A stretch of DNA of 64,000 nt from Norana najaformis (Eukaryota > Annelida > Clitellata > Crassiclitellata > Hormogastridae), in assembly GCA_964023275.1 (NCBI GenBank), contig OZ029914.1, forward strand, positions 41,767,924 to 41,831,923. The letters run 5' to 3'. The position numbers and the translations under genes were made by a program. How positions within the stretch are numbered: position 1 is the stretch's first letter; every line of letters starts with the position of its first letter. The notes beneath the pieces are model-generated. The model saw nothing but the letters and a program-made list of their open reading frames with translations, searched no databases and had not been told where the DNA came from. This document shows, in pieces, positions 25,427 through 63,457 of this stretch.

Positions 25427-25496
25427 ATGGACACACAGGTCTATGCGTTTCTGTATGCCATTTTTCTAGTTTTAATTTTTCAGCCTGTCGCAAAAG
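25427..25496 (+). CDS. gene B exon 1: signal peptide
   Basis: ATG starts MDTQVYAFLYAIFLVLIFQP, then VAK and the donor AAAG|GTTAGT at phase 1. Its sequence differs from the first exons of C to F. The link to the TM exon 2.8 kb away rests on phase and order only. Confidence 0.6.
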
Positions 25497-28400
25497 GTTA
25501 GTCTGTGCAGAAGTTCTGACTTTCATATTAATTAATGATCAGATTTATATCGAAATTTTAATACAGTGTAATTACAAAATTAAGAATGAACGCATAACTA
25601 AAATATCTTATGTTGGCTTTAATAGCCTTGGGTCAGAATTTCCGCATAACCTTCTCATACATGGGCTGTTCGTAATCGTAATCGTAATCAAAAACTTATA
25701 AAGCGCCACTTCAAGATAAAACTCATCAGAGGCGCTCCCGGCCCAATTTCCCATGATTAATGGGGAATAACACGGTCTTCAAACGCTTGCGGAAAAGAGA
25801 GGGAGGAAGAGAGAGGAATTCCCGCCTAAGGTCACCAGGCAGGTTGTTCCATGAGGCAGGGCCAACAACGGCGAAGCTGCGACGCTGTGCAGTAGTAGTG
25901 CGAGCCATAGGAACTACCAGGTCTCCCTCGACTGCCGATCGCAGCAGTCGGCGGCCAGGGACAGAAGAAACAGGGACACAGAACTCCCTTAGATAAATTT
26001 GCACTGCCAACAAGGCAGCTGCGCACAAGGGCCAGAATTTTAAACTGGATGCGTTCTCGGATTGGAAGCCAGTGGAGTTTTCCCAGCATGAATAAGGAGA
26101 TATGGCCAAACTTTGGAATGCCGCCAATCAAGCGAGCTGCAGCATTTAGGACAGACTGAAGTTGGGAGAGGGAGGAGGATCCAAGACCGGCAAAAACCAT
26201 GTTTCCAAGGTCAATTCTGGAGCAGATAAATGCGTGGACTAGAGTGATGGAGGCCTGGGTTGAAAGGGAGCGTCGAGTAGTGCGTATTTGGCGAAGGTGG
26301 TAAAAACAGGTACGGCAGACATTATTTATGCGCTCCCGCAACGTGAGCTCCCGATCCAGGGTCACTCCCAGGTTACGCACCGAGGAATGAAAAGAGACAT
26401 GAGGAAAGAGCATTGATAAATTTGCCATGTCAGTCTTTGAGAGTTGGATGGGGCCACCGAGACAGATGAACTGGGTTTTGCTGGGGTTCATGCGAAGGTG
26501 GTTGGATTTTAGCCAGGCCTGGAGTGCCGACGATGCATGGAGCAACCTGAGGGTCATAGAAACAGCCTCCGCCGCCGTGCCACGAGTATAAGCCTGTTTG
26601 TCGTCGGCATATTGATGGGATATTACCCCTAATGAAGACAGAATGGAGCCCAGGTCAGCAGTGTAAAGAATAAAAAGGAGCGGAGCGAGGACCGAACCCT
26701 GTGGGAGACCGATGGTTACAGGTGACCAGACGGTGCGTGTTTCTCCAAAGACGATAGATTGGGAGCGATCAGAGAGAAAGGAGGAGAGCCACGAAAGAAA
26801 CGGGCCAGAAATGCCGAATGACCTCTCCAGACGCTCCAGTAGGATACCATGGTCGACTGTGTCGAAAGCGGTGCTAATGTCAAAGAGGGCAAGGAGTGTC
26901 ACTTGTCCCCGATCAAAAGCCCCGTATGCGTCGGATAAAATGCGGGTGATGACTGATTCAGTAGAATGAAATCTTCTGAAGCCAGACTGTTGGCTTGGTT
27001 GTAATGAGTTGGCCTCGAGATATTGCATTAGCTGTATGGACACATGTTTTTCAACCAGTTTAGATAGGAAGGATAGGTTAGATATGGGTCGGTAGTTGGA
27101 TGGGTCGTTGGTATCCAACCCAGGACGTTTGAGGGAGGGGAAGACAATAGCCCTTTTCTGGGAAGGGGAGGGAGCCCTCACCCAGAGCCCGATTAAATAA
27201 TAAATGGAGAAAAGGTAATAAGACATTGATGACGTTCATGATAGAGATTAGTTATGTTCATGTTTATGCTTGTCAAAGCATTCATCATCTTCTATCAACA
27301 AGACGAGTCGCAGCCTAGGATTTGTGTTCCTTTCGAAGAATCGATTTCTTCTACTTCTGAAATTTTTATGACATTGTGTGTTATCCACCCTCTGTTCATA
27401 AGCCTCTGTCTTTGATGTTGTTTTGCGCTGGTTCACAATCTCATTCACAATCTCATCTCATTCGTCCAATTCATCACATACTACAATATTGTGATTAAAT
27501 GACTTAATGAATGAACTTCGATTTTCAAATGAGCGGTTGCCTTATGATTTCACTTTTAAAATATATCTAAATCTAATTTATACTGCTTCAGTCAAATAAC
27601 TTCTATAACAACAGTATCTAAGGATACAGCTACGATTACGATTTAGAAGAGGCATCAACTGATAATGAAAATGAGGTTAGACCTATTTATACTCACGTGA
27701 TCAAGAATTTTTAATAGGTCTACATTGTGTGGTTTCCTATAGGAGTCAAGAAAGCGAAAATGTGTAAGTGGGAGACATTCCGTGCCAACTGCAACGACAC
27801 GCATGTTACAATCATCAGTTCTGCTCGTTATTGAATGGAATTGAATTTGTTTAATGAATCACCAACAATCTACACAGTTACAAGTTTCACCGAAAATATT
27901 ACAAGTGCTGGCGTCAAAGGGCAGCATTCAAAGAGGCAGATGCGCTCAGATGTGGTTTCTGCGTTTTTATCCATATATTGATTGCAATATTTGTTGGCCT
28001 GCATCATATATGAGCTTATTTATTTATTTATTTCTATTAATAAACAGAACTGCAGGCAAAAGTAAAAATTGACTACTGATTTCTTGCCCCAGCAGCAAGG
28101 TTTAGTTATTTCATTCGCTCACTCGTTTATCCGTTCCTTTGGTTGTTTATTTATTTATTTATTCTTCATTCATAGTAGTTAGAACTGTAAGTGTTTTCAA
28201 TCCAGCCGTGACTGGGCAAAAGCGCTTCTGAATAGATTTCTTGAACATGTTTTCCTTGATCGAGCATCTTGTTTTGCGCTCAGCAAAATTGCCGGCCACT
28301 GTCATGTATTCATAAAGGAATGTCCACATCCGTTTTGTTACTCTGACCAGTTACTGGATATCTAGAAGGGAAAGAAACAGTGATTTCATATGCCGCTGAA

Positions 28401-29474
28401 TCAGCATCTACTTTGCAATCTGACGATGCCATTTCAACATCTACCTTGCCATCTGAGGATGCCAAATCGATGTACAGCACGACGAATGTCATCATTTTGG
28501 TAGTTTCATCTGGGGTGACAGGCTTAGTCACAGGAGTCTGCATTACAGGGATAATACTGACCGGTAAATGCAAATTTTAATCTAATATAACCTGATGTGA
28601 TCTAATGACTTCTTTAGCGCCGTTATCATAGTGCACAAGGCATCCGCCGATGGTTGTTTCGTTTGAGATCACAGTCAAGAATCATGACCTATTAGAAAAC
28701 TTGGTCGAAATCCGATAGGCAGAGAAAGTGTAAAAATTCGAAAGAAATGAATGAATTAACCTTATCAGTTGGATTCCATGAGTTACCTATCTGGGTAACT
28801 GAAATTAGCTTATTATTCCGTTGAATACTTGAATAACAAGCAGTTCTTGTTTTGATAGGTCATGCATCTACTAATACAAATATAGTAGATAGTATTTCCC
28901 AAATTTTATCTTTAAGTCAAATCTTAACTTGTGAACCCGATGATCATACTGTGAAATTCTTAACGCATAGACTCAGGTTTAAATAGTTACTACTCTTGTA
29001 TTGTTTTGATAAAAAAAACTGTTGCTTTAATTTTTCGAAGGCCTAGCACTCATTCTTATTTTTTCCACTTATTTTCATGCGCAATTTTGTATCACGTTAT
29101 AGTAGTCAATTCCAACCGTCCCATTCTCTTAATGTTTTGCTTCCTAAATGTCAATTGCAGTAAAATTCCGAAATATGATGAAGGCTAGGTCTCAAAAGGA
29201 GCAGATAAAGCTGCATGATGGCCAAACTGGAACACTGGAGAACGAAGCCTCAACAGAAGCCTCGGTAGGTCACAGTCAAGCAAACGACGGCAACTATTCA
29301 GACCTCAATACGTTGCATCTTGGTCAGACAGACGTCTGCACAGCCATAGTTCCTGAAGAACAAGCCACTATTCAAGCCATCAACAAACCTCCAGCATCGC
29401 AAATGCCATATTACTATTACGGTGTAGTACCAAACGAACAAATCCCCAGAGTACTACTGGCTACTTGGGTATAA
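25427..29474 (+). CDS. gene B: receptor-like gene with no Ig exon found
   Basis: Exons are 25427-25496 (signal peptide), 28351-28563 (stalk and TM) and 29161-29474 (tail), all joined at phase 1 and totalling 597 nt or 198 residues. The TM and tail exons closely resemble those of gene C, which has a V-like exon between the first two. In B no V-like exon was found in the 2.85-kb intron, much of which is an antisense LINE. The tail keeps YSDL of the paired motif, but the second Tyr is Cys (VCTAI). It ends MPYYYYGVV..LLATWV. B may be a pseudogene, an Ig-less membrane protein, or a donor of exons to read-through transcripts. Confidence 0.55.
25672..27226 (-). mobile_element. LINE retrotransposon, 5'-truncated, CR1/L2-like
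   Basis: It runs on the minus strand from about 27226 to a 3' tail of repeated GATTAC units (plus strand TCGTAATCGTAATCGTAATC at 25672-25691). It holds the reverse transcriptase described separately. It lies antisense in intron 1 of gene B, where other family members have their Ig exon. The upstream endonuclease part is missing. Confidence 0.85.
25726..27226 (-). pseudogene. LINE reverse transcriptase, frameshifted
   Basis: The main frame (27226 down to about 26000) has RT blocks in order: NYRPISNLSFLSKLVEK, HSTESVITRI, ALFDISTAFDTVDH (first catalytic Asp), GLPQGSVLAPLLFILYTADL, the YADD active site (HQYADDKQAY) and LRMNPSKTQFICLG. Near 26000 the frame slips by one. The C-terminal region (LREFCVPVSS..RRLLRSA..RSFAVVGPASWNNLPGDLR..FRKRLKTVLF) continues in the other frame to 25726. 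The blocks match the CR1/L2 side of non-LTR elements. One frameshift and 5' truncation make it dead. Confidence 0.88.
28351..28563 (+). CDS. gene B exon: stalk and transmembrane segment
   Basis: The acceptor is CTCTGACCAG and the donor ACCG|GTAAAT, phase 1 on both sides. A Ser/Thr/Asp-rich stalk with two similar short repeats (STLQSDDAIS and STLPSEDAKS) precedes the span VIILVVSSGVTGLVTGVCIT. Confidence 0.75.
29161..29474 (+). CDS. gene B tail exon with one YxxL
   Basis: Acceptor TCAATTGCAG, phase 1 entry, TAA stop. It begins VKFRNMMKARSQKEQIKLH, contains DGNYSDLNTLHL and ends with a Tyr cluster and LLATWV. It aligns along its length with the tail of gene C. Confidence 0.78.
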
Positions 29475-31006
29475 TCGACTAACGATTCACAACACAAGAA
29501 GGACTTCTTGCAGATTCAGTTGCAATGATAGAATTAACAGAAATTATATCTTCCTTCATTATCATCAAGGTATTATGCGGAATGTTCAACGGGTCTTGTA
29601 TAAGAAAATAGCAATCTGACAAAGTGCAAAGTGGTAATGGCGTATTGTTTTAGATAGCATGCGTACCACCGAACTTCAACAGGTTCTCTGCCTCGGACAG
29701 GATGATACTTAATGGACTAGCCAATCCTCATGGCGCTTTGCCTATTCATTTAGTCACATGTACTCATTAGTCGTCTAATCATCAAGTTCCGCATCATAGA
29801 TCTTTGTCTTTCTCTTGTCTGCAGTGGTTTTGCTAAGATTGAAGCCTTATGTATTACGAAAACGGCACATATTCAGTAGGGTCACATGCTTCGGATCCAC
29901 ATTAAACTACACTCACCTCTGTACGTAGTCATGTACGTACTATACGTATGCATATATCTGTATTTAGCCTATACTAAATAGTAAGTACCAATGACCATGT
30001 AATTATGCACTTATTTATGTATCGTATAGGAGGTGCGCGATAGCCTAGCGATTAGTGCGCGATTGTCAATCGAAGGGTCGGGGTTCAATCCCCGACAAGA
30101 TAGAGATTTGACGCGAGATTTCCGTTCCCCTTGGCCATCTCAGCTACGACGACTTCAACGATCCTACACTTACTGGGAAGAATAGGAGTATTCCCTATAT
30201 TAGTGTTAAAAAGTCGTGTGTGTTACAATGAGTGATTGCGTTGCCTCACTTGTTTCCTCACCTCGAATGAATCTTCTTAAAATCGAAGTCGAAAACATTT
30301 CGGCTGAAGTACAATTAACCCAGCCAGCACATGCACACCTTGGCACAGTGGTGTACAACGTTAGCCGACCATTGTCCAAACGTCTTTGGGCTAACTGGGA
30401 AACAGAATTATTGGTTCGCTGTGGTCGTCACAGTCCTTAAACTAAAGGACACTCCTTTCAACCTCCCAACTTCATTTGGAATTCATTTACCAATGAGTTC
30501 TTTATCCACAAGCATGGCAACAGCAGCTTAAAAAAACTAAAAGAAATACTAACTGATACGGCAAATTTCACAAAACGGATCGTGAAAACATTACTGTCAG
30601 CATGAAGCTTTTCATGTGTGAATTGAGGAGATTCTGAGACGAGAATGACCTACGTATGTGTATATGAATCTGGCTTCTAAAGGTAGCGCTTCTTGATAAC
30701 TTCTCAGGAGCTAATACATACTTCAACAAATAAGGATGTCTTAATTTTATAATATAAAAACAGATTGAAACTTTGTATGCTAACCGGAATAAGGAAGTCT
30801 AAAATAAGCTAATGAGTAAAGATCAAAATTCACCGCAGTTGCAATCCTAAGGCACACTGTCTAAACTATTTCAGGCTAACGATTAAACAACTATAAAGGA
30901 GGGTAAATGCAGTAGGACCTCGTTGGCCTAGACTCTACCGAGGCGCATTTTCTTCCCAGAATACTCCTGCATATGTTATTACATGTAGCCCTTCGTTGTG
31001 GTGGGG
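29475..31006. other. intergenic B-C, duplicated at 40560-41086
   Basis: The part from about 30785 (GGAATAAGGAAGTCTAAAAT) to the first exon of gene C matches 40609 to the first exon of gene D, so it is a shared upstream region. A SINE at 30030-30105 and another at 31007 are extra insertions. No exon was seen. Confidence 0.6.
30030..30105 (+). repeat. tRNA-derived SINE head
   Basis: GCGCGATAGCCTAGCGATTA (box-A-like) and GGGTTCAATCCC (box B, about 30081) in tRNA order, followed by a non-tRNA body. Cloverleaf pairing is incomplete. Confidence 0.55.
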
Positions 31007-31166
31007 CACGGTAGCCGATTGGTTTGAGTGCTCGGCTTGTAATGCGAATAGTACGGGTTCGAGCCTCCCTGAGACTGTTTTGTACCTTATTGTTACCTGT
31101 TGACAATGAGCAAATCCTTCACTCACAATTGCTCAGCGCCATCGATTGATGCTTAGTCATTAAATA
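31007..31166 (+). repeat. SINE of the GGGGCACGGTAGCCGATTGG family
   Basis: A tRNA-like head with box B GGGTTCGAGCC, then the shared tail CAATTGCTCAGCGCCATCGA followed by TTGATGCTTAG. Other copies are at 39292, 47450 and (inverted) 48416. It is inserted in the upstream region of gene C and absent from the duplicate upstream region of gene D. Confidence 0.7.
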
Positions 31167-31477
31167 GTGAAGATTGGTAAATGTATAAATAACAATAACC
31201 TTATGCACTTGGAAATATTGCAGCTTGTCGCAAGGCGGATATAGACTAAACTCATAAACTTGGCCTTCATGCAACTGATAACCACTGCAATTACAACTCA
31301 TAAGATCAGACAAACCTGACACGCTTGTCCTAACAGGGTATGATTACATGACACTTCAGCGCTGTTACAGACCACTTACAGACTGTTACATATTAGGGTT
31401 CAGTTTTAACTTAGCCATGATTTACGATAGGCCACATAATTCTACAGAATACTTCACAGTTTAATACTTAAACGATC

Positions 31478-31541
31478 ATGAACGCCTGCGCTTATGTGTA
31501 TGTTCTTTGTTTAGTAGCTTTGACAAACTATGACGCAAACG
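31478..31541 (+). CDS. gene C exon 1: signal peptide
   Basis: MNACAYVYVLCLVALTNYDA, then Asn and the donor AACG|GTGAGT at phase 1. It is nearly identical in protein to exon 1 of gene D. The assignment to the V exon 6.5 kb downstream is by phase and order. Confidence 0.7.
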
Positions 31542-34500
31542 GTGAGTCTACTATTAATTACTATTAATTAATAATTTCTACAGAACCGGTGTCTAATGCG
31601 GAAGGCATCAACCGATGACACCCCAAAACCACCCCGATATCAGGTCATTCATTGCCCAGAAGCTAAATCCACCGAGACAGACAGACAGCGTACGGTGGAT
31701 ATAGCAGCTGAAAAGGAAAGCCTTGGTTTGAGACCAAAATGACTAAGGAACTGAGCAGAACGAACAGAAGCGAGAAGAGAATTCCAAAATTTAGATCCAA
31801 CAGCTGAAAAAGCTCGTTCACTACGAACAGTTCTAGTTCTCTGTATAATCAGATATATTACTCAAGCCAAAGAGTTCTGAAATCTCTAGAGTACCTGCAT
31901 GTTTGATTTTGTGACACCAATTCTTGGTGAACTGTTCTTGATCAACGAGTTTTCTAAGTGATGGAATTCTCTCTTTGTATCTGTTTGTTTTGCTCAGCTT
32001 CTTCTGTTATTTCGGTCTCAATTCAAGACTTTCTTTTTCAAACTGCTTATCTACCACAGGCTGATAACGGTTTGCTTTTGGGCACTATCAATTGACATCT
32101 TATATGAATTACACCTCGGCGCTATAGAAGTTAGCAATTTATAATAATAATACCAAATTATCAAAATTATCAAAGTAGTTAATCTCTCCTTATCTAATAG
32201 TAACTTCCCCCTCCTTTTCAAACACTTATTACCACTCTTCTCAAGAAATCATCACTTGACAAAGAAATTTTTTTGAATTACCGCTTGTTTCTGATCTGCC
32301 TTTCATATCCAAATTAACTGAACGGATTGTCCTCCCTCGGATCAATGACTATTTAGCTTCCAATTCACTCCTTAGCCCACACCAGTCGGATTTTACTAAA
32401 CGCCACTAACTGAAACTCTGCTCACATCTCTCTACAATATGCTTGTTTCTGTCATCATCAACAGGCTTCTTGCCTCTGTCTCCTTGATATATGCACATAC
32501 ATTTAGGGTGTGACTTAGTTCAAAGTATATTCTTAGCTTTATTAACTTGTTATGCACTTAAACCGAAAGTTCATTCTACTGCGCTTAAACCGAAAGTTTA
32601 TTTTACCACAAGCCTACAACTTTTTGGACTATTGTTCAGAACGGTGTCGTGCAGTTAGCGATTAAACATAACCCTAGCCCTATCTGGACTTCAAACGTAA
32701 AATAGTTTGGCATGAAACTGTTAAGCATACTCTTAGAATTACAGGGTGCCCTTTAAATATGTAGCGTGATGGTTGATTTGTTAATGTCGGATCCTGTTTT
32801 AGGTCAATTGCAAATGCGGGTCTATATGATGAAAGTTTGTGTTCTTGCCATCACATGAGAGACAATTTAGCATGCAGTGGGCGCACATATCAAAATTACA
32901 GGCTGCCCTCTGAGAGGTTTAGAAAAGTAGTTGTTCTGTGTTTGATCAGTGTCAGATGCTGTTTCGGAATTAGCTTAGGTCTACTGCAAACGCTGGTCCG
33001 CATGAGCAGGCTTGGTCGTATTACCCTGGAAAGATGGTTGTCTCAGTTTAGCATTATCTTTGGCATACGACAAGCACTTAGTGTTCTTTAGAAGTATATA
33101 ACTATTGTTAGGCCTTGTTATTAGGGTTTCATTACATTTCCCAAGGGTGGGATTTACCCGTTTGGTAAAAACTGAAAATCCTTGACTGTGATCAAATGTA
33201 GACTCGGGGTTGTTTTAAATCTTTACTCGAGGCAACACAGGGCGAAACTTAGCTTCATTAAAAATTCGCATGTCCATCTGTAGAGTGCAGAATACACAGC
33301 TCTAGGGTAATGGTGCAAGCGAATAAATGAAAGAGTATCATAGTATTGCCCACAAACAAAAGTTAGTTGCAAGAATGATTTGCCACTGTTCTTGAAATTT
33401 GCATTCCCAAAGTCAAAATGTGAAGATCCATTGTCAAAAATTAATCCCATTTTAGTATGTGACTTTACAAAACACACATCGTAGTTGCTTATAAAAGCCT
33501 ATAGCCCTAATTAGCTGGTGCCAGCCTACCAGCATATCCTAGGTCGGTCTTATAGTTTCCAACTTGCTAATATTACTTGGTACTAGAAACAGGGCACGAG
33601 TAGTTCCTGGTCGTTTGTGTCTACATGTAAGTACAACCGATTATACCAAACGCCATCAGACCAAATCAAGTCGCAAGCCATTTTGGCTTTCACTTTGTCC
33701 TTTAATTCATATAAAATAGATACCCATAAGCTGCTGTTGTGGTTGTATGTCAGTATACTAGTCTAGGCCAATCCAAAGGTCATTTAGCGTCAAGCTTTTA
33801 AGAGCCACACATTTTTGTCTATTACACAATATTGAAACAGACCAAAATTCATCAGAGATGGGCAATATTCAAATAGGGCATTACTCTCTCCATAGATAAT
33901 ATTTAAAGATTGCCAAGCAGATACATCCAGTTGAGACAACAGGCCTTCACTCCATCATATGCAAAACCTAATGCCACAGATCATTTAGACTCTCTTCCAG
34001 TCGTTAATGTTATTCTATTTCACATTTGAAAATAATGGGACAAAGCTACTTTGACCTTTGTTCATTTGTGCTTTTATACATAATACCAACACCAGGCCCA
34101 AGATCCTACTGGGCTCCCTCTCTACTTCTCTGTCTGTCTCTTCCTCTCTGTTTTTTTTTGACTGAACGCCTGAGATAAAACTGGTTTCCGCGACTTAGCT
34201 TTCGTTAGGCGATGCAGAAATCTCGAGTTTACGATTACTCTAAAACTGAAAAATTGATGCATTTGTTGGCACTCATTTAATTTTAGGAGCTACTGTTATA
34301 ATGGCTATCGCTATCTGTATGTAAATACTTACAAGTCACACAAAAATTAGCATATCGGGAGGCTTATGTTCTTTATATGACGCTTACTTTAAAAACTGAT
34401 ATTTGCAATTAGAAGATACATTTTTGACTAATACACGGGTATGTGAACCGTGTTGGTAATACAGAAAACTATCTTGTTGTCAGTATAGTATTTATCTAAA

Positions 34501-37500
34501 TATTGACAGAATAAATAACAGTTATTGATTTTTAATTAATTTATTCATGAAATGGATAGGGCTATTATATTTGTACTATTAAGTATATTTTGTTCATTTC
34601 AGTTTCAATTTATTTAGTTATCCGGTTACTTCCAAACTTTATTTAAACCAGCTGCATTTACTGTACTAGATCTAGATGTAGGCCCATTCTTTTCAGCTCA
34701 AATTTGCAAATGGCTAACTGTGAGATCAACTTACTGGTTTCTGTCTCTCTCCTTGCTCAAACAGGCCCTGAATAAGAGAGAAAGGAGGGAGGGAAGAAGG
34801 GAGAGAGGAAAAGAGAGATCGAGATCGAGAGAGAGGAAGACAGCAAAAAGAAAGAAAGAAAGAGATGTCGTTAGACCTAATCATTATGCGAACATAGTGG
34901 ACTCGTGTTAATGTAGATAAATGCAAAAAAACATAGGTTTTAAGTATTAGTTACGAAACAACCCATTTCGTTTTAGTATCTTAAAGCTCATGTGACTGAA
35001 GTAAGCGAAAAGACTATTTGGAATACTATATTGTCATTATACAGCAGTAAAGCAATTTTCATCTGTAGTGACGTCATTGAATTTTTTAATCTGTGATTGC
35101 TAGTGAGAGCTAAATCGACAATAATAAACTTTAAAGAGCTGGTAAGAGTTGACCATAACAGTTACCGATAGAAGATCAAATTAAGGTTAATCTGAGGCTT
35201 GACAATTTATGACATTACTCTCATATTTATTTTATTGAGCTATGAACCGCACGTACAGTAAAATCAGATAATAATTACTTGGTTCAAACGATTTCGCTCA
35301 TAATATTTTTTAATGCTTTTTGCTTTACAAATTTTACGATAATTCCAATATCGGAGTTGTAATGTAATTGCTCTTTGATGAGGATCCTAAAGGCTACTCA
35401 GACATTAGTCTCACTTGAGTGTCCTCACGTTTTCACAGAGTGGGCGAACTGAGTCATAGGCTCTGGTCGAAGTCGCTTACGATGAGTCGGGCCTTGAGTA
35501 TGGGTGGCACAGGAAGTTGCTGAACTTTTGTTACGATGCTCCTACCCTTGGTAAGTTTTGAGGGGTGACGTCGCATTGCTCGAACACACAGTATTTCTAG
35601 GCTGGATGGAACCCGACACAATGACATCAGCAGACGGAGAGTATCGACAGTTATATTGCGTTTCTGGCGTCTGTTCAGAATCCACCACCTCTCCTTATTC
35701 ATGTCAAGCCCGGCTGAGAGCAGAAGTCCAACGATCTCTTCGTTAACCGGCGGTTCTGACAACTGGCATAGTGCATAGAGTGGTGAGCGAGGACTTGAAT
35801 CCCTGTCCTGCTTCGTAGTATCGTTGATCGTGGGATTTGCGCCGTGTCTCAATAGACACTGGCAGCATTCGTAACTTTCATGCAGACAGGCAGCGTACAG
35901 AGGCGTATAATCACCACTGTCCTTTATATCCAGTTTTCCGCCACGTTTGATCAGAAGCTCCATAAGATGCAGTTCCTGGAAGAAGGCCGTAACGTGCAAC
36001 GGACTCTGCCCCCATCGTCCTATATACCACCGAAGATACACGCCTGGAAAGTATAACGACTTGTCACTGACGTTGAAACCATCCATCTGAATAAACTCCC
36101 GAGCGATATCGACGATATTATGAACTAGCAGAATCGACAGATACTCGGACCAGCAGCGTCGCCTTTCACACGCTATTTGAAGAAACAAGCGTATCACATC
36201 GTCGTTCTTCTTTGTGCAGGCTCCTCTAAAACCGCACCGAGTGCGCATATTCGTCTGTCGCAAAAGGAATTCGATAACTTCACGGAAGTTACAATCGACT
36301 GCATGCATCAAAACGTTGCAGTAACGGAATGCCCCGGGTCCATAGTTGAAGAAATGTTCTGGATTAAATCAGCCGGTAATAAGTTCACGAAACTTGACGA
36401 CATCGTGCCTAAGTACCGCACTGTGAACTTCAGCTTCAGTTCCTTTTCCAGTAAAAGTGAAGGTTGACATATTTGATTATAAGTCGTTCAAATATCGTTC
36501 AAATCTTACAAGCTCTGGTATCCAGACAAGATGTCTGATCTCGATCGATGTTAAAATGATCAGGAAAGAAAGCTCGCTGAGCAACTTGTACAAGTGACAA
36601 AGATGTAGTAAAAGTCTCTGAGATCTCATAAACAACGAACTGTTATGACAACTTACAAATACCATTTACATAATTTATTGTAATGTAATAAAAAATAAAA
36701 AATTGTCATTTACATACACAGTGCAGTTAAAGCAACACCAGAGTTACGCACAGAATGAATCAATTCAGTAGGTGAATCAACTAATTTTAGAGATTAGAAC
36801 TATTCAAACTTCTTGGGCAACTGTAGAGTGTACAGACACAGAAATTCAGCATTTGAATGGTGGAGAAGTATATTAGTGAGTTCAATAAAACTATACATAC
36901 AATTTTTGTAAGTCGTGACTCTTGACATCCTTAAAGTGTGTTGCTTTTAGTTTATAGTTTATAATATTTACTCATTATTTCAAGCACATGCTCAACTGCC
37001 GTCACATGATTATCTGACATATGTTTTGAGGACAAAGCTATTTGATATACCGCCATCATGACTGTAGAATATTCCGACACATCCACATTCAGCATATCTC
37101 TTGGTCTATGATTTATATATAACCTCATATCCGTAAATTCCATCGGCAGTCTAAACGAAGCCCACGATATCGGAATGCCAACGCAAGATGTGAGTGGGTG
37201 ATTGAGTGAGTTAGTGGGTGGGTTGGTAGGTGGGTGGGTGATTGAGTGAGTGAGTGATTGAGTGAGTGAGTGATTGAGTGAGTGATTGAGTGAGTGAGTG
37301 AGTGAGCGAGTGAGTGAGTGAGTGAGCGAGTGAGTGAGGAGGTGAGGGATGAAGGGTGGGAGGAGCGAGCGGGCTAGTGAGTGAGTGAATGAGTGAGTTA
37401 CTGACTACACTGACTGAGTGACTGAAAGTGAGCGAATGAACGAGTTAAGTCAAGTGAGCTAAAATTGGTCATTTGTAAAGCCGTCCAAATTGTTTGACTT

Positions 37501-40500
37501 TATGAAATATCTCAACATCTCACGAATTCTCAACGACACAATACAATACAACTGTAATTCGATACTTCCCTTCTTACAAAGTTAAGAAGTGCACATTAAA
37601 ACCGAAGAACTTGATACATTAAGACAATAAACAGACTGGATGAGGTAATTCTTCTGTTTAAAGCGAAAGGTGAATTCTCTGTGAAAGAGTTTCGAACATG
37701 AGAAGGTAGAGAGGAATCAGCAACTGTGAATAAAAGACCACAGACGTATATAAGGAACAATATAGAAGATGCCGTTTGCGGGAAGAGGCAATTCATAAGA
37801 ATGCTATTTGCTCAGTTGTTATTTTTATGCTGATTACCATGTCATGGCAGATAAAAGTCTGTTTATTATACTGTTGCTGATGTAAAAGTGTTTACATTTT
37901 GTAATGTTCCCTAAAATGGTGTTCAATGAGTATTAATGGGAGAGGGTTTTATAGCACAGCATATCGACTGAGAACTAAGATATTATTATGCAGTTTATTC
38001 ACTGATGGCAAATCTATAGTCATAATATCATTTTAGGAAGAAGCGTCGCAGCATTTGAAGGCGTCTACGTCTTTGCTTCAGCTGGAGAAAGAAAAGAATT
38101 GGCATTTATCGAACAAACATCGAATCCGCCTAGAATGGTTTCGTGGTATCGGACAACTAACGACGACATAAGAAAGTGTCCTAACACAACTCATTTCTTT
38201 AATAACAACGAAGTGTTCTGCGACCGACTCACCAATAATCGAATTGTGCAGCCTGTATTCGTACAAAGGTTCTCAGTACCTGCTTTGGGAACTACAAACC
38301 GAAATGGTTTGATTATAAACCCAGTAGAACCTTCAGATGTTGGAATATACGCATGTGTCGATCACAACTCTAGCAGGATTCTAGCTCGGATTAACCTCAC
38401 TGTTGAAGAAGGCAAGTTTATTCTATTCGAGAAATAACAATGGCTTCATAGAATTTACCACAGTTTTGAAATACTGCTGGAATGGTTTTGACGACAAAGA
38501 GAAGATCAGAAAGAAACTTGAACAGGGACATACATGAAGTTAATGATTATAATGGCTATAATGAAACGTTACACACACTTTTTATGACGTCTGGTTAGCC
38601 TATCTATTCGTGCAGATAAGCCCTCAGAGTAGCTCCAAAGAAATACAAGTTTACCGTTTCAGAGAAGATGGACTGGTAGCTTTTGTGCACAATCGGAATG
38701 AGAACGTCAAGATTTAGACCAATTTAGTCAGATGACGCCACTACATAAGGCGTTATGCTGCATGAGTGAAGTCCGAACATATGTAGTGTACGGTAAGGAT
38801 CTGTGGCTATTTGAAAGCAACAGAATTTCTTTAGGTAACCAGGAGTCAAAACCCGACGTCATCTCTGGGTCTGAATCAAAGCCTTAGTTCGATGTGTTGA
38901 CAGATCCAATTGAGAACATGAAGTATGTAATCGGAACATGAAAAAAATTGTAAATTTTACCAATCCATCCGCGATCAAGCCTCAGACGCATGCATGTTAT
39001 CAGTTTTACAGTGTAAACAGACTATGAGATTGGTTTTGAATTCATATCGGGAGCGTCAAATACCCTTTCTAGAAAGACCATACATTAATTGGCCGTCTTT
39101 GTTCGGCAAGTGCCAGCATAAGCAACGAGTTTAAGCTGTCCACAATGTTTACCATGTCTTTCGACCAGTCTTCAAAGGCTGTGTTCTGAAGTAGAAGGAT
39201 TTTTTGGTTGAAATATACACACGCAACCGCAGTTCATCAGCTGAATAATCTGTTAGGTTTACCTAGTTTTGACGTCTAATTGGGTTCTATTGGGTGGGGC
39301 ACAGTAGCCGATTGATTTCAGTTTTGAGCTTTTCCTGAGACGTTTACTGTATAAGGTCTTTTAGCAAGTCCTGCACTACAATTATTGCTCAGGGCCATCA
39401 ACTGATGTTTTTGAGTTTTGTTTTCCTGTTCTATTAATGATTGCAACATATTTCTCGAGCCGCTTTGATAACAGAAACAGCACAATTTAAGAGTGTTTAC
39501 TCCTTAAGAGCAGCGTAAGGCTGTTGATGTATTCCTACATTTAATTTGGCTGAAGGCAGTATCCTTATAACTGCTCTCAACTCATGCGTGACAGGGCAAA
39601 GAGCACTTATGAGTAGAAATCTTGAATGGGCTTTGTTGATCAGACCTCTTCTTTTCACTCAAAAATATTGCTGGCCACTGTAATAAAATTATGTTCATAA
39701 AGGAATGGTCGTATCTGCTATGTTATCAGTTATCCAGCGTCCAGAAGGAAAGCAAAGGGTGGTTGCAACTGGAACAAAAGCATCTACCATGTCATCTGTA
39801 GATGCCATCTCAACAATGTACAGGTCGACGGAGTTCATCATAGTAATCATCGCATCTGGGATGGTTGGCTTGGTCGTTGGAGTCTGCATGACAACAACAC
39901 TAATCGGTAAATGTACATTACAATTTGATCTAATATGATCTGATCTTATAAAATCTGAATTCATATTCATGATCTGATCTGATCTTAGATCTAAACTGAA
40001 CTATTCCGATGACTTCTATAGTTATAATGAACAAAGCATAAGTCGAGTTGAGGTGAAATCGTAGTCAAGAATTGTAAGCGATTGGAAAAACACTTTCGAA
40101 ATCGGATAATTCAGGGAATCGAAAAATATTCACAAGAAATACATAGGATCAAATGAGTTCCCTATGAATAATTTGCCTAGCACTAACTCTCAATTTTTCC
40201 ACTTATTTTCAGGTGGAAATTTGTTTCACGCTATGTTAGTCAATTCCAGCGGTCCCATTAAAATTTTTGCTTTCTGTGTGTCAGTTGCAGTAAAATTCCG
40301 AAATATGGCGAGGGCTAAGTCTCATAAAGAGCAGATGAAGCTATTCGGTGGCCGAACTGGAAGACTGGAGAACGACGCTTCGCCAGACCTGCGTGCGATG
40401 CACCTCAGTCAGACAGTCGTCTGCACAGCCACGATTTCTGAAGAACCAGACACGTTTGCTGCAGTCGACAACACCCCAGCATCGCAAATGCCACATTGTA

Positions 40501-40559: not shown

Positions 40560-41086
40560 TCGAATCACAACACAAGAACGACTTCTTACAGCTTCAGTTG
40601 TATCCTAAGTGGAATAAGGAAGATTATGAGTCTATAACAAGCTAATGAGTTGAGATGTAAAGCCATTTGCAGTTGCTACGGCGTACTGTCTAACACATTA
40701 TAAGCAAACAAATAACCATCTATGAATTAGGGTTAATGCAGTAGCTCAGCGTTAGCCTAGACTGGGCCTGAAGCGCATCTGCTTCCCATGAATATTCATG
40801 CAATTATCATTAGGACTTTATTATGGTGTAATCTGACACAAGTGAAAAAATGCAGCTTGATTTGCAGCTTGTAACTGATTTGTAACTGATGAGCTTGCAG
40901 ATCACGATGCTAACACAAAAGTGACAGACTTGTCCTTACAGGGTGTATGTATAATTTCACAGCTGTTACAGACTTTTCACAATAATTTAGTGCATTACAT
41001 TGTAAGGTTCAGTTTCAACTTAGCCATGATTTATTATAGGCCACACAATCTTAGTGGTAACTTCACAGCTTAATATTCGAACGATA

Positions 41087-53340: not shown

Positions 53341-53346
53341 CTAATA

Positions 53347-53428
53347 ATGGGATTAACAGTGAATGTCAATGGCTATTTCTTTCTCATGTGTTTCATAGAC
53401 CTAGATATCATAAACTTTAATTCTCAAG
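53347..53428 (+). CDS. gene E exon 1: signal peptide
   Basis: MGLTVNVNGYFFLMCFIDLD, then IINFNSQ and the donor CAAG|GTTGGT. Same length (82 nt) as gene F exon 1. The donor is weaker than in F. Confidence 0.65.
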
Positions 53429-54653
53429 GTTGGTTCAATCATTTTGCATCTTTGATACATCTTTGATGCATTACAAATTATTGTTTCCGTTGGAATAATC
53501 GTAGTTTCATGATTTTTACTTCCATTTTTCAGTTAGTTATAACATTTTGCTTTTTCAATTTGTCTGTCTTAATTTATAGCTGTTTTTTAAACTTGTCATC
53601 GATGTCCAGTATTTTGTGCTTCGCGCTTTAACTATTCCAACTGGAGATTTTTTAAAATAATTGCCTACTTATAAATTATGTCCAGATATGCTGATAAACG
53701 AGGCAAATAAGAAAGACAAGTAGTCAAATCAACTAAGCATTTGAGTTATTAGGCTTCTCCTTTATGACTGAAGTCGTTTAAATACAATCATTGTTTGATT
53801 TTTAGGAAGAAACGTCACAGTCGAAACGTATAAAGGATCTTGCGTCTTGGGAGAGAGCATAGCAATTGTAGAAAAACAACACGTCTTTGGTTCACTTGGG
53901 GAAAGTAAAGAACTGACATGTGTCGCACAAGCATCGAATCAATTCAGATCAGTTTCGTGGTATCGGACAACAAATGAAGACGTAAGAAAGTGTCCTAATA
54001 GAACTTTTTTAGTTAGTAATGACGAAGTGTTCTGCGACCGCCTGACCAACAATCGAAATGTTCAGAATGGCTTCGAAGAAAGATTCTCAGTAACTAAACT
54101 AGAAACTGACAACAAAAGCGGTTTGATGATAACTAGGGTTGAACCCTCAGATGTTGGAATATACGCATGTGTTGATCACAACGGCGACAACAAGATCAGT
54201 GTGTTGATTAACCTCACTGCTGAAGACGGTCAGTTTATTCTATTCAAATACACATTAAAAGTGAAGGTTAAAAACAATTACAGTCTGTATAGGTGGTGAT
54301 AATTATAGCATTAAGACGATGACAGCACTGTTTACAATAGGCTTATCGGTGACGATTGTGAAAATCTCTGTCTCTGTCTCTTTCTTTCTCTCTCTGTCTT
54401 TCTATCTGTCTCTCCTTCTAGCTGGAATTAATCCCTCCTATGCAGCGATCAGCTACACGGATTTTCTCTCCTCTTGTTTCTTTACTCTTACACCCCCTTA
54501 TCACAACAATCTAGCAGTTCAATGCAATCGCTTTCCAGAGTAAGTTCGAGGAGCTAGACATCCGAGATGACCAATTATTTCATAAATATATTCTTTCTAG
54601 CACAAAATAAACTCCTGCACCGTCTGGATCGTATCCTTTGGGTAGTAATAGGC

Positions 54654-54694
<41 letters not shown>

Positions 54695-57292
54695 GCAATA
54701 ACAAGCCTGCTTCTTGCTTCAGTTGGAAGTCGAAAAGAACTGATATGCACGACACAGACATCGATTTCACCGAAACCAGTTTCGTGGTTTCGAACAACTC
54801 ATGGCGATGTAAGAAAATGTCCCGACAATCCTTATGTATTCCACAACAACGAGGTCTTCTGCGACCGCCTGACCAACAATCGAATTGTTCAACTTGGCTT
54901 CAGACGAAGATTCTCAGTACCTGGTCTGAGAACTGAAAACGAAAAAGGTTTGATTGTTACTAGTGTTGAAGCCTCAGATTTTGGAATATACGCATGCATC
55001 GAACACAGCAGTTACAAGATCCTTTCACAGACTAACCTCACTGCAGAAGAAGGTCAGTTAAATATATTCAACGAATATTATTATAAGCGTCATAGACCAA
55101 AATTACTGCTGTGATAATGGTCACAGTGGTGGAATGATTTTGATGATCAAGAGAAGAAAGAGAAAGAAACTTGAATGGCGCCACTATCTAAAACTCGCGA
55201 TGCATGTGTTAGTATTGTCTTTATATTATGCTAGTTCAGTTGTTGGATAAGCCTAATTTGCCAATTGTTACTTTACACCTCTTGGTTATAGTCTTCAAAG
55301 GGGGTTTATGGGTTTGAAAGATTTTTGGCTGGAATTTGCAAGCAACAAGTGTCTCTGTATTTTGGCAATCGTGAACTTGATTATTGTCGATATTTTCTCA
55401 ACGCAACTGTGTCGGGTCTCTTTGCCTTGTATAAGGAATAGAAATGCATGTTTCTTAAGGGTCATGGTAGCCATCAGTGACATAACTTGAACGAATGAAA
55501 TGAAGGCGTCAGCGAATCCCTGATCAGAAAAAAACAGGAAGAGGATCCAACTTGCCGGAATTTGTTGCTGACAAGGAATCAGAATGATGAGATTTCAGTA
55601 TAACACCCTGTTAGGTGTCATTTATTCACAACATTTATATAGAGCCCCTTCAAGATATCCACCCAGAGGCGAAAGAGCTAACGGAATGACTCGCATAAAA
55701 CTATATTTGTAATATTTATTAATATAAGTCCTAAAGTAAAGAGACATTGTAAGAAATTAATTGTAGTAGTACAGGGTAACATAGGGTTACAAACATCGTG
55801 TTGCGCCCTCAACTAATGTCACAAATGTAGTCTGGTGAAGAGTTCAATCCTCTTAATTTTAATCTTTTGCATAGACCTATACAGCTACTTTATTTGGTAT
55901 ATTTGGTATTTGTTCTACATTTGGTATCTGTAGATTGCATTAAATTTTTGATTGTTTTCATACACAAGAATGACCTAAATTAAAACTAAGTATATAAGCA
56001 TAATAATAACTTCTTTAAACTTTGATTTTAAGAAGGCTACAATTCTGATGAGCTCTTGCCACTCAAATATAAGAGGCTGGCATTTTTATTATAATTATGT
56101 TTTAAACAGATTTCTCACATCCAAACGGAGAACAAACGACACTTGAGAAACAAGACAGAACAACCGATGTGGTTGTGAATGCAACTACATTAGGACCAAT
56201 CGCTGCAATTACAGTTGCATCAACGACAGAAGTCCAAAATATAACCATCATCCTTTTCATCGTGGTCGGCCTCGTTGGCTTCGTCGCAGGCCTGTTCGTT
56301 GCAACAGCGGTACTAAAATGTATGCCTGAATGTGCAGTTATAAAACTTTAAAGAACATTATGCAGCTGCATTTAACTTATTTTAATCAGTAATAATATTA
56401 TCATCACGATGAATGTGTCAAGTTGGCACTTGCAACCAAACACGAAGCAATTATTCAGTTGAAAAGAGATTTATTTATTGTTGATACTGTGGTATATCTA
56501 GCACTTAATAGAACTCCATTTGGAGTATCTTACAAAATCGATGCCTACGCCAACCTAAATTATGTTAAAGTCATTAAGACCAAAAGTTCATCAGTAAGCA
56601 AACAGTGCTAAGATAACAAGAGGATTCAGCACTGAATGGCTCCCGCATACACACATGATTTCAATAATTTGTGCACAGTAACCTAAGTTTTTTCGGACTC
56701 GTGAGTAGCGGTGATGTTTAACTTTTTCGCTGTGTTTTTGTTGTTTTTTTCCGCCGTTGTAGCGAAAATGAAGATGTGTCAAAAGTACTTTTCACTAACC
56801 TAGCAAAATTTTGCCTTAGTGAATGTTATAAACATCAAACTTGAACATTTCAAACAAAGACTAGAAAGTTGCATGGAAATATATAGGGACTAAAGCTCAA
56901 AACTCACCTGGCTTATTAACTGTACCAGTACCATATTATTTCCGATTACAGGTAGGCCTAAAACAAAGCCTCCAGATCTGCCTGCGACAACAAACGGCCA
57001 AGTCGGAATCAGGCCAGAAGATGGAGCCAGTAACCATCAAGCAACAGACGACAACTATTGCGAGCTGAATGCGATTGATTCCTCGCCGACCAGCATCGTC
57101 TATTCATCACTTCTTCCTACAAGCGAATCAGTCTCAGTTCCTTCGCATGGGAACAATTCGGCTTTGGAAATTCCATTGTATTATGATGTAATCCCTTTTA
57201 TGGCGTCAGTATCAAGTGCAGAAGAGACCAATCGCTGGTCAAGCGAGGATGGACAACAACTGAATAACGACTATTTGGAAATAACTGCTTGA
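53347..57292 (+). CDS. gene E: receptor with two V-like exons
   Basis: Exons are 53347-53428, 53806-54228, 54723-55052, 56110-56319 and 56952-57292, all phase 1, totalling 1386 nt (461 residues) with both V exons. Skipping either keeps the frame. The V exons could be used together or as alternatives. V1 has an extended N-terminus and a canonical Cys pair. V2 lacks the usual A-strand segment, with an AAT microsatellite just upstream. The tail has DDNYCELNAIDSSPTSIVYSSL (two YxxL sites eleven residues apart, the second fitting the ITIM pattern), LYYDVI and DYLEI. The tail suggests SH2-dependent signalling; whether it activates or inhibits cannot be told from sequence. Confidence 0.78.
53806..54228 (+). 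CDS. gene E V-like exon 1
   Basis: The acceptor is GATTTTTAG and the donor GACG|GTCAGT. It starts RNVTVETYKGSCVLGESIAI with about 17 residues more than the relatives, then KELTCVAQASN, VSWYRTTNEDVRKCPN and SDVGIYACVDHN. Confidence 0.83.
54654..54692 (+). repeat. (AAT)n microsatellite next to gene E V exon 2
   Basis: About 13 AAT units, 30 bases upstream of the acceptor. It lies where the 5' coding part of the ancestral V exon would be. Confidence 0.95.
54723..55052 (+). CDS. gene E V-like exon 2, 5'-truncated
   Basis: The only good acceptor, TTCTTGCTTCAG, sits inside sequence homologous to the coding start of the other V exons (ASVG for AEVG), so about 14 residues of the A strand are absent. 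It contains ELICTT, PVSWFRTTHGDVRKCPD and FGIYACIEHS. The donor is GAAG|GTCAGT. Confidence 0.65.
56110..56319 (+). CDS. gene E stalk and transmembrane exon
   Basis: The acceptor is TTTTAAACAG and the donor AAAT|GTATGC, phase 1 on both sides. The stalk is DRTTDVVVNATT..ASTTEVQN and the span ITIILFIVVGLVGFVAGLFV. Confidence 0.82.
56952..57292 (+). CDS. gene E tail exon
   Basis: Acceptor CCGATTACAG, TGA stop. Same length as the gene F tail. Tyr sites in order: YCEL, YSSL, YYDV/YDVI, YLEI. A Pro-rich head (RPKTKPPDLPATTNGQ) is present. Confidence 0.82.
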
Positions 57293-59855: not shown

Positions 59856-59859
59856 TTAT

Positions 59860-60117: not shown

Positions 60118-60174
<57 letters not shown>

Positions 60175-61132: not shown

Positions 61133-61214
61133 ATGGGTTTAGCATTGAATGTTCACGTCTATTTTGTGGTCATCTGTTTCGTAGATGTGAATATTGGAAG
61201 CGCTGCTTCAAAAG
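61133..61214 (+). CDS. gene F exon 1: signal peptide
   Basis: MGLALNVHVYFVVICFVDVN, then IGSAASK and the donor AAAG|GTGAGT. Good signal-peptide profile. Confidence 0.78.
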
Positions 61215-63457
61215 GTGAGTGAATATTTTCTAAACTTTTTATTTCATAAACATTAATTTCTATGATGCAAATTTATTCGCTTCTGTATCGCAATAAATAG
61301 CTTAAAATCCCTTTCAAACCTTCTTTTCTTAAGTTATGAATATCTCACTTTGTGCTTTATATCTTGAAGAATTGTATTCTTATGCAAGTCACCGTTTCAG
61401 AATCAATTTTCTTCATACTTCGCAGTTTTTCTCAATTATGATGTCAAGAGCAAAATAAAAAACGCTTATCGGCTAAAACTGGTTCGTTATGCTGCAGTTT
61501 ATTTACTGGAGACAAATGTATTGTCATTGTTTAAGTTTTAGTAGGAAGAGTCGCAGCTTTTGAAGGAACACACGTCTTTGCTGAAGTTGGGAAAAGAAAA
61601 GAACTGGCATATATCACACAAGCATCTGATCCGCCTAGAATGGTTTCGTGGTATCGGGTAACTAACGACGACGTAGGAAAGTGTCCTAACAGAACTTATT
61701 TCTTTAATAACAGCGAAGTGTTCTGCGACCGGCTGACCAATAATCGAGTCTTGCAGCCTGGTTTCGGACAAAGGTTCTCAGTACCTTCTCTGGGAACTGA
61801 AAACCAAAATGGTTTGATAATAACCAGGGTTGAACTGTCAGATGCTGGAATATACGCATGTATCGAAAGCAGCAACAACACGATCCTGGCTTCGATTAAC
61901 CTTATTGCAAAGGAAGGTCAGTTAATTCGATTCGACGAATATTACATGCCTTTTAGACCGCCATCTTTGTTGTGACTATAGTTATGGTGGTGGAAAGATT
62001 CTGATGATCGATAAACTAATGTTACCGAAATAGTCTAAGGAAGAGTACCATCTGATCTTTTCCCTTAGCTTTTGCTGATACTTTTTTGGTGTTATTCTGT
62101 TAGTATGTTGCATTAATATTGTGATTGGCTTCTCAAGCAGTGACCTAAAATCAGCCTAAAGATAACATTTCCTACAATTCTGTTCAGCTCTTACCGCTCA
62201 AGTATAATAGGCTGCAACATATTAACAGTTTTACTATGACATTTATTTCAAACAGACTCAACGCATATAGATGAAAAGCAATCAACGCTTAAAGATCAAG
62301 ACAGAGCATCGGATGTGGTTGCAAATGCAAGTAAATGTACATTGAAAACAATTCTAGTACCTTCAACGATAGAAGTCCGAAATATAACCATAATGTTTAT
62401 CATCGCAGCCAGCCTTTTTGGCTTCATGATCGGCCTGTTCGTTGGAACTGGAATAATGAAATGTAAGTCCTAATGTGCAGTTACAAATCTTTAACAGAGC
62501 ATTACGCAGCTGCTTTTAGCTTATTTGTAATCGATAATAATATTATAATCACGATGATTGTGTAAAATCGGTATTTTTAACCAAACACAACGCCATCAGT
62601 CAGTTGAAGAGATCTATGTATGTATGCATGTATGATATTGTATATATGTATATATTATGTATCTAGACACTTAATATAGTGTCAATTTAAAGTACCTTAC
62701 AAAAAGGAAGCCTATGCTTAACCTAAAAACCATTAAGTACCAAATGTTTATCAGTAAGCGAACAGGGCTCAGATAAAATAATATAGTCTAAACTGCTAGG
62801 CTCCCATACACACGCAGATCCCAACCAAATTTAATGTCTTTTGTTCAGCAACCTAAACTTTTATAAAATAGTGAGCAACGATGCTGTTTTTCTTTGTTTT
62901 TATGTTTTTTTCCTATTTTCTGTTGTTGTGGCAAAAACCAGAGATGTTCACAAAGTGCTTTTCCCAGCCTAGCTGATTTTCCTTTTGTAACTATCATTAA
63001 CGCTGAACCTATACACTCTCAAACAAAGACTAGAAAGTTGGATGGAGAGATATTATAGGAAAAACCTCATAAATTACCTGGTCTATATAGCATTAGCATA
63101 TTATTTCCGCTTACAGGTAGGTCTCGAGTAATTCCTCCAGATCCACCCACGCCTACAAACGGCCAAGTCCGAATAACGCCAGAAGATGGAGCCAGAAACC
63201 GCCCTGCAGCAGACGACAATTATTGCGCGCTGAATACAATCGATTCCTCGCCGACCAGCGTCGTCTACTCATCGCTGTTTCCTACAGGCGAATCATTCCC
63301 AGTGCCTTCGCATGAAAAAAATTTGGCTTTGAAAATGCCATTGTGTTATGAAATAATTCCTTTTATGGCGTCAGTATCACGTGCAGAAGGGATTAGTCGC
63401 TGGTCAAGCAAGAATGGACAACGAGTGAATAACAACTATTTAGATATAATTGCCTGA
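61133..63457 (+). CDS. gene F: single-V-domain receptor with paired YxxL tail
   Basis: Exons are 61133-61214, 61545-61916, 62256-62462 and 63117-63457, all phase 1, totalling 1002 nt or 333 residues. It is the most compact complete member. The V-like domain has VSWYRVTNDDVGKCPN and SDAGIYACIE, but the first canonical Cys is Tyr (ELAYIT). The tail has DDNYCALNTIDSSPTSVVYS (YCAL then YSSL), CYEII and NYLDI; VVYSSL and LCYEII fit the ITIM pattern. The repeated 5' and 3' flanks shared with gene E show tandem duplication. Confidence 0.82.
61545..61916 (+). CDS. gene F V-like Ig exon
   Basis: The acceptor is AGTTTTAGTAG and the donor GAAG|GTCAGT. It begins RVAAFEGTHVFAEVGKRKEL. The B-strand Cys is Tyr. 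The extra Cys pair (KCPN..VFCDRL) and the F-strand Cys are kept. Confidence 0.85.
62256..62462 (+). CDS. gene F stalk and transmembrane exon
   Basis: The acceptor is TTCAAACAG and the donor AAAT|GTAAGT, phase 1 on both sides. The stalk contains DRASDVVANASKC with an unpaired Cys. The span is ITIMFIIAASLFGFMIGLFV. Confidence 0.82.
63117..63457 (+). CDS. gene F tail exon
   Basis: Acceptor CCGCTTACAG, TGA stop, 341 nt as in gene E. Tyr sites in order: YCAL, YSSL, YEII, YLDI. Pro-rich head VIPPDPPTPTNGQ. Confidence 0.83.

Follow-up and report, generated by a model that had tools for sequence, protein, structure and literature searches.

A tandem cluster of modular V-Ig receptor genes with tyrosine-bearing tails and shared exon cassettes

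What kind of receptor family is it in which neighbouring paralogues carry related tails behind different ectodomains and different tails behind related ones? The question is raised by a 64,000-nucleotide stretch of Norana najaformis DNA (C2:41767924-41831923, where C2 is contig OZ029914.1; hereafter the window), which comes from one haploid assembly of 608,420,607 bases in 17 contigs. Between positions 25427 and 63457 of the window, all on the + strand, lie five paralogous units (u1 to u5), each with a transmembrane (TM) exon and a tail exon. Their best explanation, to which we assign a probability of about 0.62, is a birth-and-death family of type I receptors with V-type immunoglobulin (V-Ig) domains and tyrosine-signalling tails, in which blocks would be exchanged at the phase-1 intron preceding the TM exon. 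That these are modular V-Ig receptor genes with joins at the pre-TM intron is well supported by the gene models and alignments presented here.

Receptor units and joins at the pre-TM intron

Unit models were built from stop-to-stop open reading frames (ORFs), DNA self-comparison and hand-checked splice sites. The common plan consists of a signal peptide (SP) exon, one or more V-Ig exons, a TM exon and a single tail exon (Table 1), which corresponds to predicted type I receptors of ~198-470 aa with V as their only Ig domain. An initial annotation of this DNA had described five SP/V/TM/tail paralogues on one strand. Five TM-plus-tail units are indeed found on the + strand, whereas u1 has no recognisable V exon, its SP being joined in frame to the TM exon, and in u2 and u3 no SP adjoins the V exon. 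The latter two have SP exons 5-6.5 kb upstream instead, homologous to each other (82.6% over a 115-bp match). Just 5′ of the u3 V exon (45548-45590) there is a u5-like SP relic from which the ATG and the donor are gone, and u3 seems to use its distal SP in place of this relic.

The same annotation held that all internal junctions are phase 1 and that total lengths divide by three, and both statements agree with the models: phase 1 is found in 15 of 15 modelled introns of u1-u5 (2+3+3+4+3 per unit, with boundaries chosen knowing the hypothesis), and coding lengths are 597, 885, 1263, 1413 and 1002 nt from u1 to u5, counting the distal SP exons of u2 and u3. Intron ends are GT-AG in 14 cases and GC-AG in one (the u2 V donor). 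All V, TM and tail exons in the models are open, and the frame is kept when either of the two u4 V exons is skipped. Independent support for these predicted structures is provided by the open frames, the V-set matches and the splice sites common to paralogues. With phase 1 at every modelled junction, blocks of exons are exchangeable in frame.

The apparent make-up of u2, a u3-like SP and V joined to a u1-like TM and tail, is explained by one tandem duplication. In the self-comparison of the window, 12 of 13 blocks shared by the two copies of this duplication (Table 1) are collinear, with 3449 aligned columns at 73.9% identity, and both ends of the duplication fall inside introns preceding a TM exon; u2 would have been born in a single event that extended between the pre-TM introns of u1 and u3. 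Divergence is similar across the duplicated pieces (identity 0.828 for SP, 0.814 for V, 0.792 for the V-TM intron, 0.707 for TM, 0.754 for the TM-tail intron and 0.781 for the tail), which fits a single event. Synonymous divergence (dS) of the u2 V exon is 0.41 versus u3 and 0.31 versus u5, and against u3-u5 it reaches 1.0-1.5 for the u2 TM exon and 0.91-1.14 for the u2 tail. Among the scored candidates, u1-type tails are those of u1 and u2 only (2 of 4). A duplication joining one ectodomain to another tail can be read here in the sequence.

Another cassette join is found 0.7-0.9 Mb from the cluster. Eight matches to the u3-u5-type tail were obtained among 18 candidates, including two loci 177 kb apart at C2:41057835 and 40880571 (L048 and L049, respectively), where the TM and tail exons are u3-u5-like (the tail has 55% identity to that of u4) and follow a different two-exon ectodomain. 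The DNA match of both loci to u4 begins 85-97 bp upstream of the TM exon, covering that exon, parts of the intron, the tail and the 3′ flank. Their second ectodomain exon is related to D2, the second ectodomain exon of a neighbouring gene in the window, gene A (28-29% identity, E 8e-6 to 1.6e-5), and the first aligns with V domains and also, at 29% identity (E 1.6e-4), with an exon located 8 kb 5′ of the window. An ectodomain of gene A type throughout was considered for these loci and set aside, the second exon alone being supported. L048 and L049 are ~96% identical overall and 99.2% across the TM-tail block, which suggests a recent duplication with local homogenisation. Taken together, the u2 duplication and L048/L049 place the join in the pre-TM intron at two different gene pairs.

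A mechanism consistent with these joins is unequal crossing-over between pre-TM introns, which would exchange blocks and would have joined the u3-u5 TM and tail cassette to another ectodomain in L048 and L049; the motif-free tail of u2 and the V-less receptor of u1 would be further outcomes. At the cell surface, where the products would be expressed, one V-type Ig domain (two in u4) would bind a ligand outside the cell, whether in recognition of self/non-self or of microbes. The tail, on its own exon, would signal by tyrosine phosphorylation through a pair spaced like an immunoreceptor tyrosine-based activation motif (ITAM; YxxL-x10/11-YxxL/I), together with sites resembling the corresponding inhibitory motif (ITIM) and YxxPhi sites.

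Table 1. Coordinates of modelled exons, the duplicated segments and the tail repeat, counted from the first letter of the window
Feature	Position	Strand	Remark
u1 SP exon (MDTQVYAFLYAIFLVLIFQPVAK)	25427-25496	+	phase-1 donor
u1 TM exon	28351-28563	+	
u1 tail exon	29161-29474	+	
u2 SP exon (MNACAYVYVLCLVALTNYDAN)	31478-31541	+	homology to u3 SP exon
u2 V exon	38037-38411	+	GC-AG donor; Pfam V-set match
u2 TM exon	39730-39906	+	
u2 tail exon	40291-40559	+	u1-type
u3 SP exon (MKAYAYLYVLCLVALTNYDAS)	41087-41150	+	homology to u2 SP exon
u3 V exon	46036-46407	+	Pfam V-set match
u3 TM exon	48106-48300	+	
u3 tail exon	48967-49598	+	
66-bp tandem repeat within u3 tail	49211-49581	+	5.6 copies, 99% matches
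u4 SP exon	53347-53428	+	
u4 V exon 1	53806-54228	+	Pfam V-set match
u4 V exon 2	54696-55052	+	(TAA)13 immediately before acceptor; Pfam V-set match
u4 TM exon	56110-56319	+	
u4 tail exon	56952-57292	+	
u5 SP exon	61133-61214	+	
u5 V exon	61545-61916	+	Pfam V-set match
u5 TM exon	62256-62462	+	
u5 tail exon	63117-63457	+	
Tandem duplication, first copy	28188-39317	+	u1 TM+tail, u2 SP+V, part of u2 V-TM intron
Tandem duplication, second copy	39568-47472	+	u2 TM+tail, u3 SP+V, part of u3 V-TM intron
Gene A SP exon	7878-7917	+	
Gene A V exon	8946-9287	+	
Gene A second ectodomain exon (D2)	10288-10641	+	
Gene A TM exon	11204-11347	+	
Gene A first tail exon	12546-12605	+	tentative

Tyrosine-bearing tails

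The tails of u1 to u5 can all be aligned. Their tyrosines lie in YxxPhi motifs in 5 of 5 cases in u4, 4 of 4 in u5, 3 of 4 in u3 (before its repeat), 3 of 5 in u1 and 0 of 1 in u2, to which the L048 tail adds 3 of 3. With 20,000 shuffles, the corresponding P values are 1e-4 for u4, 6e-4 for u5, 9e-4 for L048, 0.018 for u3 without its repeat, 0.046 for u1 and 1 for u2, whose tail has no YxxPhi motif. ITAMs follow the spacing consensus YxxL/I-x6-12-YxxL/I, and such pairs are found in u4 (YCEL-x11-YSSL), u5 (YCAL-x11-YSSL), u3 (YCEL-x10-YTEI) and L048 (YCKL-x11-YSSL/I type); the L049 sequence also has this spacing, and those of u1 and u2 do not. The YxxPhi tyrosines of u1 are that of YSDL and two within YYYYGVV, and a cysteine occupies its second ITAM-position tyrosine (VCTAI). 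ITIM-like motifs are present in u4 (LYYDVI) and u5 (LCYEII). After its ITAM-spaced pair, the u3 tail continues with six 22-aa repeats whose tyrosines are not in YxxPhi motifs, each repeat containing YEN, which we take to be a Grb2-type motif; the 66-bp repeat encoding them is likely to vary in length between individuals.

When u4 is compared with u5, differences within the 20 residues of the ITAM block number 4 nonsynonymous to 5 synonymous, as against 45 to 6 elsewhere in the tail (Fisher P 0.007, a crude count), and the ratio of nonsynonymous to synonymous divergence (dN/dS, NG86) is 0.12 in the block versus 0.98 in the remainder. For this pair, there is a modest indication of slower amino-acid change in the ITAM block than in the remaining tail.

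These comparisons bear on a simpler proposal, in which the units would be ordinary fast-evolving adhesion genes (nectin/JAM-like) and their tail tyrosines either incidental or YxxPhi signals for endocytosis and sorting. A V-Ig domain followed by a TM segment and a YxxPhi tail fits adhesion molecules as well, and both JAML and Robo appear among the PDB matches of the V domains. We nevertheless regard this proposal as unlikely, given that all tail tyrosines of u4 (5/5) and u5 (4/4) lie in YxxPhi motifs with ITAM spacing and that the u4/u5 ITAM block is slower than the rest. Tandem expansion with cassette exchange is also, to our knowledge, atypical of adhesion genes.

Constraint, V domains and relatives in the genome

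Several observations weigh against a family of signalling receptors with exchanged blocks. Exon boundaries were picked with the phase-1 hypothesis in mind, so the phase result is a matter of consistency and not an independent test. The ITAM-block comparison comprises nine differences in one pair and is weaker in u4-L048 (6 nonsynonymous, 3 synonymous) and u5-L048 (6 and 4), while shuffling any one of these tails yields the ITAM spacing in 0.2-1.6% of trials, and since the tails are kin to each other, their spacings are not independent cases. At L048 and L049, the first ectodomain exon gave no Pfam match and no tblastn match to the gene A V exon. The u2 TM exon is barely more identical to that of u1 (0.707) than to that of u3 (0.679), its tail giving a clearer difference (0.781 vs 0.697). 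Identity between u4 and u5 is 0.745 in the TM exon versus 0.784 in the intron (tail 0.824), and between u2 and u3 it is 0.814 in V versus 0.792 in the intron; often exon identity does not exceed that of introns, and constraint is therefore weak outside the V frame and the ITAM block. Finally, a canonical Cys is lost in two of five V domains (Phe replaces the B-strand Cys in u2, and Tyr does so in u5; u3 V has both canonical Cys) and the tail motifs are lost in u2, which may mean that some units are in decay; as for u1 and u2, either decay or a decoy role is conceivable.

Extended to the entire cluster, this would mean that most units are pseudogenes left behind by tandem duplication. The absence of V in u1 and of tail motifs in u2, the lost Cys in u2 and u5, the SP relic in u3 and the low constraint of exons over introns would all be expected, but we find this very doubtful considering the open V, TM and tail exons modelled in all five units and the dN/dS of 0.38-0.68 in the window's V pairs. 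Frame conservation is the better guide to function: almost no gaps are needed to align the V exons of u2 and u3, which takes 376 columns for 371 aligned bases, whereas the adjacent intron is gapped, with 1100 columns for 871. The dN/dS range given refers to ten V pairs in the window; over a wider set it is 0.24-0.95, with 1.52 for the two near-identical V exons at 39.53/39.69 Mb (no dS was obtained for four pairs with another V exon, d3, and the u1 TM exon was left out of the table).

The five V exons of the window (u2, u3, both of u4, and u5) all match the Pfam V-set family, with E from 3.6e-11 (u4 V1) to 1.2e-3 (u5), and the curated cut-off is passed by u3 and u4 V1 only. A profile of 23 V sequences from this genome had antibody V domains, pIgR, Robo and JAML among its best 60 of 14,503 PDB matches; the AlphaFold model of the V domain, with a mean predicted local distance difference test (pLDDT) of 33.9, is too low in confidence for the fold to be read. 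The window's V subfamily is characterised by a lengthened C'-C'' region and an extra Cys pair (KCPN...FCDRL) at CX13C spacing. It is small: with u4 V1 as query, 116 candidates were scored and 10 places obtained, namely the window's own five V exons, two just downstream, C2:39.53 and 39.69 Mb, and one weak match. The two downstream V exons (C2:41834758 and 41859874) lie 3.4 and 28.5 kb past u5, are 93% and 82% identical to u3, exceed the V-set cut-off and have DNA resembling the u4 SP region upstream. No recognisable TM or tail was found for them within the 80 kb examined, and they may be secreted forms, have divergent tails or be relics. A simple TM-exon scan, insensitive in that it recovered three of five known TM exons and not that of gene A, detected a different TM exon after d3 and none to pair with the V exons d1 and d2 or with the 39.5/39.7 Mb loci (B and C).

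Beyond this subfamily, a genome V-set search in which 150 of 910 candidates were scored returned at least 150 places over the curated cut-off (150 of 150 scored, one with an internal stop). Contig C2 makes up 8.5% of the assembly, yet it holds 103 of these 150 places, 95 of them in six runs with neighbours at most 500 kb apart (0.5-2.5, 3.0-3.7, 39.3-40.5, 41.2-41.8, 47.7-49.2 and 49.7-50.5 Mb). Such numbers suggest a broad repertoire, as would be expected of innate sensors of pathogens or microbiota on blood cells or gut, in a NILT/NITR-like expansion with no allorecognition role. The closest architecture is that of NILT/NITR (PMC3022915), and in Ciona, proteins with V domains (VCBPs) bind bacteria of the gut (PMC5465252). 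On the other hand, identity to u3 among the remaining four V exons of the window is 58-79%, a narrow range for a broad sensor. We consider this a serious possibility, at somewhat less than even odds.

Gene A, a distinct neighbour of u1-u5, also has phase-1 junctions; the remainder of its tail beyond the tentative first exon at 12546-12605 was not found. From its start (7878) to the end of u5 we measure 55.6 kb, in keeping with the approximately 55 kb first estimated. D2 has relatives in at least 150 places (150 of 388 candidates scored), all with E <=1.3e-4, 139 of the 150 on contig C2 and four with stops. Pfam (E up to 10) gave no family match for D2 and a PDB profile search nothing below E 0.49, and its by-eye assignment as a C2-type Ig domain is unsupported by either search. 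Judging from these matches, D2 is a large unnamed domain family.

Other features of the window include a reverse-transcriptase ORF (RVT_1) within the u1 SP-TM intron (25832-27235, -), transposase fragments (DDE_Tnp_1_7) at 1421-2442 (-) and a 496-aa open frame at 14172-15662 (+) without a Pfam match above the cut-off. A 304-aa ankyrin-repeat ORF (35454-36368, -) is nested in the u2 SP-V intron on the strand opposite to u2; a likeness to ASB/SOCS-box proteins was not upheld, Pfam and PDB giving ankyrin repeats only. Elsewhere in the assembly, two nuclear copies of mitochondrial COX1 fragments are located at C15:412069-412726 and 570464-571281. In one nuclear COX1 copy, the part that aligns with mammalian COX1 contains four AGR codons, three at Gly positions (among them the GG of IGGFGNWL) and one at a Ser position; by eye, the rest of this copy has one further AGR at a Gly position and two at sites where Ser is usual in animals. 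Since the GG motif would be lost if AGR were Ser or Arg, these codons are fitted best by the ascidian mitochondrial code.

Comparison with known receptor systems

Gene models, V-set matches and tail motifs bear out the initial description of clustered V-type receptor genes of the immunoglobulin superfamily (IgSF) with phase-1 exons and tyrosine tails, and the immune or self-recognition role then proposed would be compatible with them. That the cluster is "possibly undescribed" is plausible: no such ascidian cluster was found in the portions of open-licence PMC full text available, and the relatives described there (FcoR and VCBP) differ in domains.

FcoR of Botryllus has a V domain, a sushi domain, two C2-type Ig domains, a TM segment and an ITIM/hemITAM/YxxPhi tail in 520-610 aa, and its genes stand beside fester genes and HECT ligases with varying gene content (PMC12065747). 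Like FcoR, u3, u4 and u5 are clustered and type I, with V-type Ig and a YxxI/L/V tail (u2 lacks the tail motif and u1 the V domain); unlike FcoR, with its sushi and two C2-type domains, u1-u5 have V only in 198-470 aa. The combination of V domains with ITAM/ITIM-type tails and the changes in gene content resemble what is described for FcoR (PMC12065747); along with the probably variable u3 repeat, they recall allorecognition receptors, and the units might be functional counterparts of FcoR/fester reading a polymorphic self ligand. This is rather doubtful, since no sushi match lies at C2 39-42 Mb (134 matches among 150 scored of 237 candidates) and the nearest HECT match is more than 2 Mb off (81 matches among 94 scored, with only one, weak, in C2 39-42 Mb, at 39.45 Mb; fester itself was not searched). 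Identity with FcoR/fester is ruled out by domains, no sushi and no adjacent HECT having been found. Components of the ITAM/ITIM pathway are expressed in Botryllus ampullae (PMC12065747), and ITAM-bearing proteins are reported from Ciona and Halocynthia (PMC5465252).

Sushi domains themselves are arranged in a tandem cluster of 15 of the 134 matches at C1:59394419-59701593, with no HECT match inside, and none of the 150 scored V-set matches is on C1. A single 2562-aa open frame full of sushi repeats, a very long exon, is located at C3:41259707-41267338.

The nearest architecture to the preferred reading of a birth-and-death family of V-Ig signalling receptors is that of NILT/NITR. Teleost NILT genes encode one or two V-type Ig domains, a TM segment and an ITAM/ITIM tail, form a tight tandem cluster with phase-1 Ig exons, and have ectodomains and tails that diverge at different rates; the leukocyte receptor complex is named in the same article (PMC3022915). 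One or two V-type Ig domains, TM and ITAM/ITIM tail are found likewise in u3, u4 and u5, with phase-1 Ig exons. In contrast, the NILT tail is spread over several exons with its ITIM exon in phase 0, whereas u1-u5 have a single phase-1 tail exon, and most salmon NILTs have an extra CX3C cysteine pattern instead of the CX13C pair of the window V domains (PMC3022915). VCBPs of Ciona and amphioxus have tandem V-type Ig domains and a chitin-binding domain and are secreted (PMC5465252, PMC2632668); in u1-u5, V is followed by TM and tail exons (a chitin-binding domain was not searched for). Homology of u1-u5 to NILT/NITR is supported as far as the V-set match.

More speculatively, contig C2 could carry an invertebrate counterpart of the leukocyte receptor complex: well over 100 V-Ig ectodomains, many beside D2, and a few signalling or silent tail cassettes would be recombined in the germline through crossing-over within the pre-TM phase-1 intron, serving non-self or allogeneic recognition independently of fester/FcoR. 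We think this improbable. The mammalian complex (KIR, LILR) is a tandem IgSF cluster in which ectodomains and activating or inhibitory tails reassort, and KIR/LILR differ from u1-u5 in having C2-type Ig domains and other tails. Among invertebrates, Alr of the cnidarian Hydractinia comprises clustered IgSF self-recognition receptors, to which the present units are likened by description, not by sequence. As a V-domain family with ITAM-spaced tails and a legible duplication that put one ectodomain before another tail, u1-u5 would allow a direct comparison for the origin of vertebrate paired receptors (NITR, NILT, KIR and LILR). Beside fester/FcoR, the cluster would offer a testable candidate recognition system.

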